Positions 46,425 to 52,393 of a stretch of 64,000 bases of DNA are shown here, in pieces. Position numbers and translations under genes: made by a program. Under the pieces are notes generated by a model. It was not told the DNA's origin, did not search any database, and worked only from the letters and a program-made list of their open reading frames with translations. The stretch comes from an uncultured Hyphomicrobiales bacterium (GTDB lineage Bacteria > Pseudomonadota > Alphaproteobacteria > Rhizobiales > Devosiaceae), in the NCBI GenBank assembly GCA_903842455.1, contig CAIMLX010000161.1:1-64000 (forward strand), in the 5' to 3' direction. Each line of letters opens with the position of its first letter. Position 1 is the first letter of the stretch.

Positions 46425-49400
46425 TTATCCCGCAAGTGTTGCCACCGCGCCCGTTTCCCCGGCAATCCGGGCCATCCGGGACAGAATCGCCGCCGTTCCC
46501 TTCAGCCTCGCATCAGGAGTTGGCCAATCTCGGGCAAACACGAGTTTCTGATCTGGTCGTACACGCACCTGCATCTGCCGATCGGAGATCAGCCGGACGA
46601 GCCCTGCAGGATTGGGGAACTCGTTGTTGCGCAGCGTGATGATCGCACCCTTGGAGCCGGCATCGACCTTTTCGACATTGGCCTGCCGGCAGAGCGCCTT
46701 GACCAGAATGGTCTTGAGCAGCGCTTCGACCTCGGGCGGCAGCGGTCCGAAACGATCGATGAGTCCCGCGCCGGCCTCGTCGATATCGCGCATGTCGGTG
46801 AGGTCGCCGAGCTGGCGGTACAGCTGCATACGCACCTGCAAATCCGGCACATAGTGCTCGGGAATCGCCACCGGCATGCCGAGCGAGATGGTGGGGCTCC
46901 ACTCGCCCTTTTCCTCGAAATCGGTGTCACCGTTGCGTAGCGCTGCGACGGCCTCTTCAAGCATCGCCTGGTAGAGTTCGAACCCGACCTCGCGAATGTG
47001 GCCCGACTGCTCGTCACCCAGCAAGTTGCCGGCGCCGCGAATATCGAGATCGTGGCTGGCGAGCTGAAAACCCGCTCCCAGGCTTTCGAGCGACTGCAGA
47101 ACGCTCAGGCGCCGTTCGGCCGTGTCGTTGAGCTTGCGGTCGGGCGGGATGGTGAAGAGCGCATAGGCGCGCTGCTTGGCCCGGCCGATGCGGCCGCGGA
47201 TCTGGTAGAGCTGGGCGAGCCCGAAATTGTCGGCGCGGTGCACCACCAGCGTGTTGGCGTTCGGGATGTCGAGGCCGGATTCGACGATGGTGGTCGCCAC
47301 CAGCACGTCGAACTTGCCGTCGTAGAAATTGTTCATGATGTCGTCGAGTTCGGTTGGCGGCATCTGGCCGTTGGCGACAACGAACGACACCTCGGGCACC
47401 TGCTGGCGCAGGAACTCCGCGATGTCGGGCTGATCCTTGATCTTGGGCACGACATAGAACGCCTGCCCGCCGCGATACTTTTCGCGCAGCAGCGCCTCGC
47501 GGACGCTGAGCGGATCGAAGGGCGAGATGAAGGTGCGTATGGCGAGGCGATCGACCGGCGGCGTCGCCAGCAGGCTGAGATCGCGAACGCCGGTCAGGGC
47601 GAGCTGCAAAGTGCGCGGAATCGGTGTGGCCGTGAGCGTCAGCACATGGACGTTGCCCTTCAGTTCCTTCAGCCGCTCCTTGTGGCCAACGCCGAAGTGC
47701 TGCTCCTCGTCGATGATCAGCAGGCCGAGGTCCTTGAACTCGACCGACTTGCTGAGCAAGGCGTGCGTGCCGATGACGATGTCGAGTTTGCCGTTCTTCA
47801 GCTCTTCCTTGGCTCCCTTGAGCTGCTGCGCCGAGACGAGGCGGGAGGCCTGCGCCACCCGCAGCGGCAGACCGGCGAAACGATCGCGGAAGTTGCGGTA
47901 GTGCTGGCGCGACAGCAGCGTCGTCGGCACGACCACCGCCACCTGGCGGCCTGACATGGCGACGGCGAAGGCGGCGCGGAGGGCCACCTCGGTCTTGCCA
48001 AAGCCGACGTCGCCGCAGACGAGCCGGTCCATGACCTTGCCAGACGACAAGTCCTCGAACACGGCGTTGATGGCGACGAGCTGGTCCTCGGTCTCTTCGT
48101 AGGGGAAGCGGGCGGCGAACTCCTCGTAGAGGCCGGGCTGGATGTCGATCGGCGGCACTAGTGTGAGCGCGCGCAGCGCAGCAATCTTGATCAGCTGGTC
48201 CGCCATCTCGCGGATGCGCTTCTTCAGCCGGCTCTTCTTGGCCTGCCAGGCTACGCCGCCGAGCTTGTCGAGTTCGCCGACATCGGTGCCGTAGCGGGTG
48301 AGAAGCTCGATGTTCTCGACCGGCAGGTAGAGCTTGGTGTTCTGCGCATATTCGATCTCGACGCAGTCGTGCGGGGCGCCGGAGACATCGATCGTCTTCA
48401 GCCCGAGAAAGCGGCCGATGCCGTGATCGACGTGCACGACCAGGTCACCGGCAGCGAGGCTGGCGGCTTCGGTGAGCGCGTCGGAGGCTTTCTTGCGCTT
48501 CTTGGGGCGCAGCAGGCGCTCGCCGAGAATGTCCTGCTCGGCCAGCACCAGCATATCGTCGGTGGCAAAGCCGGTCTCGAGGCCGAGCACGACGATGGCA
48601 GTCGTGTCGGCTGAGGTGGTCTCGGCGTCGAGCCAGTTCTCGGCAAGGCGGGGGTGCTCGAGGCCGTGATCCTTCAGCACCTGGACCATGCGGTCGCGCG
48701 AGCCTTCGGACCAGCAGGCAATAATGGTGCGGCGTTTCTTCTTCTGTTCGGCCTTCAGCAGGTTGACCACGGCGGTGAACAGGTTGACGTCCTGCGCCTG
48801 CCGCTCGGCGGCGAAGCTATGGGTCAGCCGGCCGCCGGCATCGTCGCTCTTTTTGCCGTCGGGCGCGAGGAAGGGCGACAGCTGCAGCACGCCGCCCTTG
48901 GGGGCCAGGGCGTAGAGCGGCTGCTCCATCTCGTAGAGCAGATCGGGCTTTACCGGCTTGTAGGGAGCGGCGCCGCCGGTGTTTTTCTCGTGCCGGGCCT
49001 ATTCGCGAGCCTCGTAGTAGTCGGTGATCTGGGTCTGGCGGTCCGCGTAGGCTTCCTTGGCCTGCTCGTCGAAAACGAAGGGAGCCTCGTCGGTATAAGC
49101 GGTGAGGTGGTCGAGGCGCTCGTAGAAGAACGCCAGCCAGTGCTCGACGCCGGGGTAGCGCTGGCCTGCGCTGACGGCGGCGTAGAGCGGATCGTCCACC
49201 GTGTTTCCGCCGAAGGTAGCGGTGTAGCGCTGGCGGAAGCGCCTGATACCGTCTTCGGTGAGCAGCACCTCGCTCATCGGAGCGAGCGCCATGCGCTTGA
49301 GGTTGCCCGTGGTGCGCTGGGTATCGGCGTCGAAGGTGCGGATGGACTCGAGCTGGCGACCGAAGAAATCGAAACGGAGCGGGGCTTCCTGCCCTGCGGG

Positions 49401-49919
49401 ATAAAGGTCCACAAGGCCGCCGCGCACGGCATATTCGCCCTGCTCACGCACCGTGGGCACGCGGAGGTAGCCGTTGCCGGAGGCCCAGGCGATCAGCTTG
49501 TCGCTGTCGACGACCTGCCCGGCGGCTGCCGAAAAGCTCATGCCGCGCACGACGTCGAGCGGCGGCAGCTTCTGCACCAGCGCGTTGACCGTGGTGAGGA
49601 CGATGGCGCCTTTCACGGCGCCCGAGGCAATCGCCGAGAGCGTCGTCATGCGGGCGGCGATAGTGACGCCGTTGGGCGAGACGCGGTCGTATGGCAGGCA
49701 GTCCCAGGCGGGGAGTTGGAGCACCGGATGACCGGGCATCAACTGCTCGAGGATCTCCGACATGCGCTGCATTCGGCGGCCGTCGCGCGCGACGAAGACG
49801 GCGGCAACCGGTTGATCCGCATTGCCTTTCAGGCGGTTCTCGACGAGGCGTGCGAGCACTACCGGCTGCATGCCATCGGGGACATTGGAGATAGTGCGGT
49901 CAGGCTTGATGTCGGTCAT
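46425..49919 (-). pseudogene. mfd: transcription-repair coupling factor Mfd, interrupted by an in-frame TAG
   Basis: Mfd removes stalled RNA polymerase and recruits UvrA. The N-terminal part (306 residues, 48999-49919) covers the UvrB-homology region. A TAG at 48999-49001 ends it (residue 307), but the same frame continues without gap: codons 48998-48930 read ARHEKNTGGAAPYKPVKPDLL and on into MEQPLYALAPKG, and then 834 residues. That second part has the CarD-like RNA-polymerase-interacting domain (DLVVHVDHGIGRFLGL), Walker A (GDVGFGKTEVALRA), a DEEQH box and the TRG-containing C-terminus. Total is 1165 codons, a normal length. A single CAG-to-TAG change would explain it. It could be a recent mutation, a sequencing error or read-through. 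Confidence 0.9.
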
Positions 49920-50197
49920 GACGCGGTCTTGAAGGCCAGGAGGTCGGCAAGGAGGTCCCTGTCGGCGTCAGGCGGCATCGGCAGGCTGCCCATCAGCCAG
50001 TCGAGGAGGTCGGTATCCATTTCCTCGAGGAGTGCCTCGAAGCGATCGAGCTCCGCTGGCGACATGGTCGGCAGCCGGGCATCGGCGTAGGGCCCGAGCA
50101 TCAGGTCCATTTCGCGGGTGCCGCGGTGCCAGGCACGGTAGCGCAGGCGGCGCAGCCGCATAGACAGTTCTTCACCGGCTGCTTTTTCAGGGGCCAT
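49916..50197 (-). CDS. sdhE: succinate dehydrogenase assembly factor 2 family (SdhE)
   Basis: A 93-residue small protein that helps attach FAD to the SdhA subunit. The hallmark RGTREMDLMLG is at residues 25-35, preceded by LRRLRYRAWH. It overlaps mfd by ATGA, an arrangement shared with other alphaproteobacteria. The gene is divergent from recG. Confidence 0.93.
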   Translation of the reverse strand: MAPEKAAGEELSMRLRRLRYRAWHRGTREMDLMLGPYADARLPTMSPAELDRFEALLEEMDTDLLDWLMGSLPMPPDADRDLLADLLAFKTAS

Positions 50198-50284
50198 GAG
50201 CGGGTCGTCTCGGGGAATGGTTGCCTCTGATACGCGGTTCTCCCCGGCCTGTCACGAGCCCATGGAATCCAATACGTTGTTGCT

Positions 50285-52393
50285 ATGTCCCGCCCCCCTG
50301 CCCTCGATCCACTGTTTCGTTCGCTCCACTCCATCAAGGGGGTTGGTCCGCAGCTTTCCGCCCTGCTGACGCGGTTCTTCGGGGCGCCGGAGGGACAGGA
50401 GGCCATTGCGCTCGACCTGTTGATGCACATGCCGACCGGGGTGGTGGACCGGCGGCGGATGGATGGCATTGCCGGGACGTTCCACAACCAGGTGGCGACG
50501 CTGAAGCTGCATATCGACCGGCATTTGCCGCCGCCGCGGGGGCGGCCGGGCGTGCCGCACCGAGTGTTCGCGCATGACCAGACCGGGGAAATCCAGCTTG
50601 TCTACTTTCGGGCGCAGGGCGGTTGGGTGGAAAAGCTGCTGCCGGTCGGGGAGGACCGGTATGTCTCTGGGACCATTGGTTTTTTCAACGGCGATAAGCA
50701 GATCACGCACCCCGACTACGTCGTCGAGGCCGACAAGTTCGACGAGATGCCGCTGGTGGAGCCGGTCTATCCGCTGACGCAGGGACTGAGCTCCCGGGCG
50801 CTGACCAAGCTCACCCGGCAGGTGCTCGGGACGCTGCCGGAGCTGCCGGAATGGGGGACGCCGGAGACGCTCGCCAACTTCAAATGGCCGAGCTTTTTCA
50901 AGGCGATGCACCTCGCGCATGAGCCGGAGACACCGGACGATGCGCAGCTCTGGTCGCCGGCGCGGATGCGGCTCGCCTATGACGAGTACCTGGCAGGGCA
51001 GCTGGCGCTGCTGATCGTCCGCTCGCAACTGGTCGCGCCTCGCGGAATAGCGCGGACTTTCAACGGGTTGATCACCGGGGCGGTGACGGCCGCCCTGCCT
51101 TATACGCTCACTGAGGGACAGCGGCTGGCGGTCGAGGACATTCTCGCCGATCTCGCCGCGCCTGAGCGGATGTCGCGGCTGGTGCAGGGTGACGTGGGGG
51201 CCGGCAAGACCGTGGTGGCCCTGATGGCGATGGCGGCGGTGGCCGAGAGCGGCGCCCAGTCGGTGATGATGGCGCCGACGGAACTGCTGGCAAATCAGCA
51301 CTTTAGGTCCCTTGCGCCGATCTGCGTGAAGGCGGGCCTCGGGATCGAACTGCTGACCGGGAAGATGCCGGCGGCGGATCGGCGGGCGGCGCTGGAGCGG
51401 CTGAAGTCCGGGGAGAGCACCATTGCGGTGGGGACGCATGCGCTGTTCCAGAGCGGGGTGGAGTTTCACAACCTGGGGCTGACGGTGGTGGACGAGCAGC
51501 ACCGGTTCGGGGTGCACCAGAGATTGGCGTTGTCGGAGAAGGGGTTACATGCCGACCTGCTGGTGATGACAGCGACGCCGATCCCGCGGACGCTGGTGCT
51601 GACGCACTTTGGCGACATGGCCGTGTCGATCATCCGCGACAAGCCGCGTGGACGGCAACCGATTGATACGGCTGTACTTTCCATCGGCGAGTATGGTCGG
51701 GTGGTGCAGCGGTTGCAGGCGCGGATTGCCGAGGGGGCGCAGGCGTTCTGGGTCTGCCCGCTGGTGGAGGAGAGCGAGCACCTCGAGGTGATGGCGGCAG
51801 AGGAGCGGTTTGCCGAACTGAAGAAGGTGTTCGGCGACCAGGTGGTGCTGGTGCACGGCAAGATGTCGGCGGCGGCAAAAGCTGATGCGATGGAACGGTT
51901 TAGCCGGAACGACGCAAAGGTTCTGGTGGCGACGACGGTGATCGAGGTGGGGGTGGATGTGCCCAATGCCTCGATCATGATCATCGAGCATGCCGAGCGG
52001 TTCGGGCTGGCGCAGCTGCATCAGTTGCGGGGGCGCGTCGGGCGCGGCAGCCAGCGGTCGGCGTGCCTGCTGCTCTACAAGGAGCCGCTGTCGGAGACGG
52101 CGACGGCGCGACTGGAGACGATCCGGAAGACTGAGGACGGGTTCGAAATTGCCGAGAAAGATCTGGAGCTTAGGGGCCAGGGCGACGTGCTGGGGACGCG
52201 ACAGTCGGGCATGCCGGGGTATCATTTGGCGGTGCCGGACGTGCACCGGCATCTGCTCGAGTGGGCGCATGCGGACGCCAAGGCGGCCCTGACGCGTAAC
52301 CCGGGACTGACCGGTCCGGAAGGCGAAGCGCTGCGAACGCTGCTTTATCTGTTCCGCAAAGACCTGGCTTTGCCACTCATTCGTGCGGGTTAG
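50285..52393 (+). CDS. recG: ATP-dependent DNA helicase RecG
   Basis: A 702-residue replication-fork-reversal helicase. The N-terminal wedge/OB domain (to about residue 200, HMPTGVVDRRRMDGIAGTF) is followed by the helicase core: Walker A GDVGAGKTVVALMA, motif II DEQH, HRFGVHQRLALSEKG, and the C-terminal RecG helical hairpin with LRGRVGRGSQRSACLLLY and LELRGQGDVLGTRQSGMPGY. Length is normal. It is divergent from sdhE-mfd. Confidence 0.96.
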   Translation: MSRPPALDPLFRSLHSIKGVGPQLSALLTRFFGAPEGQEAIALDLLMHMPTGVVDRRRMDGIAGTFHNQVATLKLHIDRHLPPPRGRPGVPHRVFAHDQTGEIQLVYFRAQGGWVEKLLPVGEDRYVSGTIGFFNGDKQITHPDYVVEADKFDEMPLVEPVYPLTQGLSSRALTKLTRQVLGTLPELPEWGTPETLANFKWPSFFKAMHLAHEPETPDDAQLWSPARMRLAYDEYLAGQLALLIVRSQLVAPRGIARTFNGLITGAVTAALPYTLTEGQRLAVEDILADLAAPERMSRLVQGDVGAGKTVVALMAMAAVAESGAQSVMMAPTELLANQHFRSLAPICVKAGLGIELLTGKMPAADRRAALERLKSGESTIAVGTHALFQSGVEFHNLGLTVVDEQHRFGVHQRLALSEKGLHADLLVMTATPIPRTLVLTHFGDMAVSIIRDKPRGRQPIDTAVLSIGEYGRVVQRLQARIAEGAQAFWVCPLVEESEHLEVMAAEERFAELKKVFGDQVVLVHGKMSAAAKADAMERFSRNDAKVLVATTVIEVGVDVPNASIMIIEHAERFGLAQLHQLRGRVGRGSQRSACLLLYKEPLSETATARLETIRKTEDGFEIAEKDLELRGQGDVLGTRQSGMPGYHLAVPDVHRHLLEWAHADAKAALTRNPGLTGPEGEALRTLLYLFRKDLALPLIRAG

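Follow-up and report, generated by a model that had tools for sequence, protein, structure and literature searches.

In this genome mfd, the conserved DNA-repair gene for the transcription-repair coupling factor, is interrupted at codon 307 (of 1164) by a single in-frame TAG, which we read, with a probability of roughly one-half, as a private and very recent GAG-to-TAG nonsense substitution in an otherwise ordinary gene. The TAG is present in the deposited sequence, deep within a 93,741-base contig whose first 64,000 bases make up the stretch analyzed here (the window). On the minus strand, mfd runs from an ATG at 49919 through 306 codons to the TAG, and from there through 857 open codons to a stop at 46425; an ATG at 48929, separated from the TAG by 23 sense codons, opens 834 codons. 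When the letters were re-read, the original prediction of a lone TAG in an otherwise intact mfd (306 + 23 + 834 codons) was borne out, and the two explanations it had put first, a real mutation or a sequencing error, were upheld as the leading ones. The mfd features in the window are as follows:

48999..49001, minus strand: in-frame TAG, mfd codon 307 of 1164, as read from the sequence
48999..49919, minus strand: N-terminal open frame of mfd, 306 codons, with UvrB_inter (PF17757, residues 132–217)
46425..48998, minus strand: remaining mfd frame, 857 codons, with MFD_D3, CarD_TRCF_RID, DEAD, Helicase_C, and TRCF
48927..48929, minus strand: first ATG past the TAG (codon 331), a candidate internal restart, weak by sequence

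When read through the TAG, the protein matched the mfd model TIGR00580 in one stretch (residues 149–1085) at 952 bits. The separate parts scored 76 bits (N-terminal) and 870 bits (C-terminal), such that the read-through protein and the C-terminal part alone both exceed the 800-bit cut-off for Mfd. In tblastn searches, the mfd genes of relatives aligned uninterrupted across codon 307. Because the TIGR00580 stretch and the tblastn alignments both bridge the TAG, mfd is one gene, and we ruled out two neighboring genes. E. coli Mfd (6X26, 2EYQ) aligned one-to-one with the read-through frame over residues 40–1140, the difference being the one extra in-frame TAG found here. The read-through frame has the same full domain order as Mfd proteins of the TIGR00580 family, with UvrB_inter 5′ of the TAG and D3, RID, DEAD/Helicase_C, and TRCF 3′ of it; as sequenced, the chain stops at residue 306 and does not unite the UvrA-contacting domain, RID, translocase, and TRCF. 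By a hand count from the alignment, codon 307 corresponds to E. coli Leu300, which we take to lie inside the UvrB-homology module. The TAG would then fall within that module and not, as first described, in a normal Mfd linker, there being no loose linker between finished domains at this point.

We asked how relatives read at the same position. Our comparison of residue 307 drew on 115 loci, with 111 alignment rows covering the residue, two of them the genome's own copy; none of the 109 rows from other loci (one of which has a gap, and at least two of which, L028 and L036, look like one gene entered twice) had a stop there. The comparison with close relatives suggested earlier has thus been run, and the TAG looks private to this assembly, with the rest of the gene intact. 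Residue 307 is variable among relatives (E, D, Q, A, T, K, S, R, V, N). The sister gene, in genome G012, shares 95% amino acid and 88% nucleotide identity and has GAG at codon 307. Among named relatives, those nearest by mfd are Devosia species (77%–78%), and we therefore take the organism to belong to Devosiaceae. When 30 mfd genes were placed in a tree with codon 307 left out, the sister pair had a support of 1.000; the adjoining clade has GAT, GAC, or GAG. Judging by these codons of the sister and the clade, the source change was most likely GAG (Glu) to TAG, a single G-to-T transversion. The original prediction had assumed a CAG-to-TAG change; a route through CAG would take two steps from the GAG state, and CAG was rejected as the source codon, since sister and neighbors all have GAN. 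Given a GAG source, the C at the codon's first base that it proposed to look for in the reads is also the wrong base.

The gene is under strong constraint on both sides of the TAG (dN/dS of about 0.05 vs. the sister). Against G012, dN/dS was 0.056 for codons 1–306 (dS 0.75) and 0.049 for codons 308–1164 (dS 0.51), which argues that the TAG is either young or an error; dN/dS averages over the entire branch and therefore excludes only an old loss. Across 66 family genes, 557 columns have no more than one deviant, and mfd in this genome is the lone deviant at 0 of them; this is mild evidence and weak for dating because 42 of the 66 genes also score 0. Everything cited here for youth would be equally expected of a one-base error.

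An error of one base in the assembly consensus, with the organism's own mfd intact, is a substantial possibility to which we give somewhat less than even odds. The source genome is a 4.56-Mb draft in 280 contigs (100% complete, 0.95% contaminated), mfd has no other decay by dN/dS or by the lone-deviant columns, and G-to-T changes are a known class of library damage, arising from oxidized guanine. On the other hand, few random errors produce a stop, and one nonsense error would therefore imply further errors around it, yet only the mfd break stood out in the 25,919 codons we compared. In this comparison, 69 ORFs of G012 were set against 943,306 bases of the genome and eight were flagged, with mfd the only one broken inside a recognizable gene. 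The seven others comprise three whose Pfam domains start past the break, one whose stops all fall within residues 1–50, one without a Pfam match, and two from L204 assessed only by visual inspection. In the reverse direction (this genome's ORFs against G012), five of 73 were flagged, every one by comparison with a single G012 stretch, L204. A codon-usage scan for same-frame stops yielded 31 candidates here (659,863 bp scanned), 11 in G014 (400,000 bp), and 14 in G012 (378,356 bp); because the candidates viewed by eye were mostly gene-to-gene boundaries, the scan cannot tell breaks from boundaries. The case matches a lone nonsense pseudogene and a consensus error alike, namely, a single private substitution in a gene that is otherwise intact, with no difference noted. 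Titles and abstract openings retrieved in a literature search on natural mfd nonsense alleles, or on stops in assemblies, held nothing on this case.

Disruptions of mfd elsewhere in the family bear on both readings. At a threshold of E 1e-120 or better, an Mfd match was found in 132 of 136 family genomes, the other four being 55%–85% complete, and in all 119 of the better genomes. Mfd loss is thus not common in the family, which counts against a real null allele. We then placed the breaks in 73 loci, covering all genomes with listed internal stops plus two with broken coverage and leaving out partial Mfd matches in G021, G062, G122, and G135. The mfd of G088 (L255; one contig, 98% complete, from another genus of the family) likewise has a lone in-frame TAG, but at codon 592 in the window's numbering. 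The mfd frame was in pieces in G157 (L278), G064 (L279), G070 (L281), G118 (L282), G068 (L283), and G095 (L284). The remaining relatives with counted stops had them at residues 1155–1163 or beyond the BLAST-aligned end, or had none in the aligned part. The broken frames in G068, G070, G095, and G118 (1–6 contigs, 84%–93% completeness) suggest indel errors of long-read assemblies. With the G088 TAG and at least six broken-frame genomes, lone mfd disruptions do occur in such assemblies, in keeping with a consensus error here.

A second, diverged Mfd of about 1090–1100 aa, 40%–43% identical to Mfd, occurs in at least 11 of the 136 family genomes (G031, G070, G073, G093, G094, G101, G105, G121, G122, G135, and G137) and also in G040, from the same order. 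Two of these genes are

L295:7117-10413, minus strand: diverged Mfd with UvrB_inter, RID, DEAD, Helicase_C, and TRCF
L296:6406-9675, plus strand: diverged Mfd with UvrB_inter, RID, DEAD, Helicase_C, and TRCF

We found no second or diverged Mfd in the genome under study, where the next match of the C-terminal part was a RecG-like neighbor of mfd. The genes upstream of mfd in the window are

49916..50242, minus strand: sdhE frame (PF03937), start provisional
50285..52393, plus strand: divergent RecG-like helicase ORF, 702 aa, 38% identical to the Mfd motor

The RecG-like name is putative: recG models match the Mfd motor, and the ORF was named by comparison with them. Many of the listed relatives also have a RecG-like match within a few kilobases of mfd. 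The TGA of sdhE overlaps the mfd ATG as ATGA (window 49916–49919), which suggests an sdhE–mfd operon with coupled translation.

Could full-length Mfd be made despite the TAG? Decoding of the TAG as an amino acid, by a suppressor tRNA, recoding, or readthrough, would agree with a frame that is open on both sides, but we find it scarcely credible: the genome has an unbroken release factor 1 gene (prfA) that scores above its cut-off, and a pattern for CUA anticodons, of unproven sensitivity, gave four matches (vs. 33 for a control pattern), none of them a tRNA by ARAGORN. A second tRNA pattern, intended to serve as a control, did not come out clean (13 matches vs. 14 for its own control).

We also think it very improbable that the gene has become a functional split, in which residues 1–306 and a restarted 331–1164 (834 aa) are both made or, in a variant of the same reading, two Mfd halves work in trans. 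Both halves are open and constrained, but no relative has the split: the residue-307 alignment and the break placement on the 73 family loci led us to reject a split common to relatives. The cut would also fall within the UvrB-homology module and not at the module's end. The restart proposed at 48929 drew little from the sequence. ATG 331 lies 69 nt past the TAG, with no GTG or TTG in the 23 codons between them; its Shine–Dalgarno pairing is 0.3 kcal/mol (none), against a median of −2.4 at 400 random places in mfd, and it sits in a stable hairpin (−28.3 kcal/mol over 80 nt, vs. −11.6 for the native one). Pairing is weak at the native start as well, at only −1.5 kcal/mol, but this start may be coupled to the sdhE stop, which ATG 331 cannot be in the same way. 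Of 72 rows, just 15 have methionine at residue 331, against V in 23, L in 18, I in 12, and T in 4; the start is thus not conserved.

In E. coli, Mfd lacking domains 1–3 or the UvrB-homology module has deregulated ATPase and translocation activity, and transcription-coupled repair is abolished (PMC3025350); movement of the module is among the subjects of PMC7385628. Because these deletions free the motor from autoinhibition, any protein that did restart at ATG 331 would displace polymerase as a deregulated motor, and the phenotype of the module deletion favors a functional split to that extent. The 834-aa product would resemble the laboratory construct lacking the module (PMC3025350), but is predicted to retain residues 331 to the module's end. 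We think it very doubtful that the 834-aa half serves as an RNA-polymerase-displacing translocase without the N-terminal brake and without UvrA recruitment; if it did, polymerase eviction would be naturally uncoupled from repair.

We return to the nonsense substitution, whose source codon, recent date, and effect on function we infer. Translation would end after residue 306, inside the UvrB-homology module, leaving a piece that would keep the UvrA-contacting domain. Because the truncated product would be without the RNA-polymerase-binding domain and the translocase, Mfd-dependent transcription-coupled repair would be lost. Global excision repair by UvrABC would remain; uvrA, uvrB, uvrC, and prfA all scored above their cut-offs and have no internal stops. 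The event is of an ordinary kind, and nothing points to a new mechanism. As it stands, the finding is of little consequence, being confined to one nonsense change or one wrong base in a single draft assembly. If the change is real, the organism would be naturally Mfd-deficient in a family whose better genomes all have an Mfd match, and the strain would be useful for comparing UV tolerance and mutation rate.
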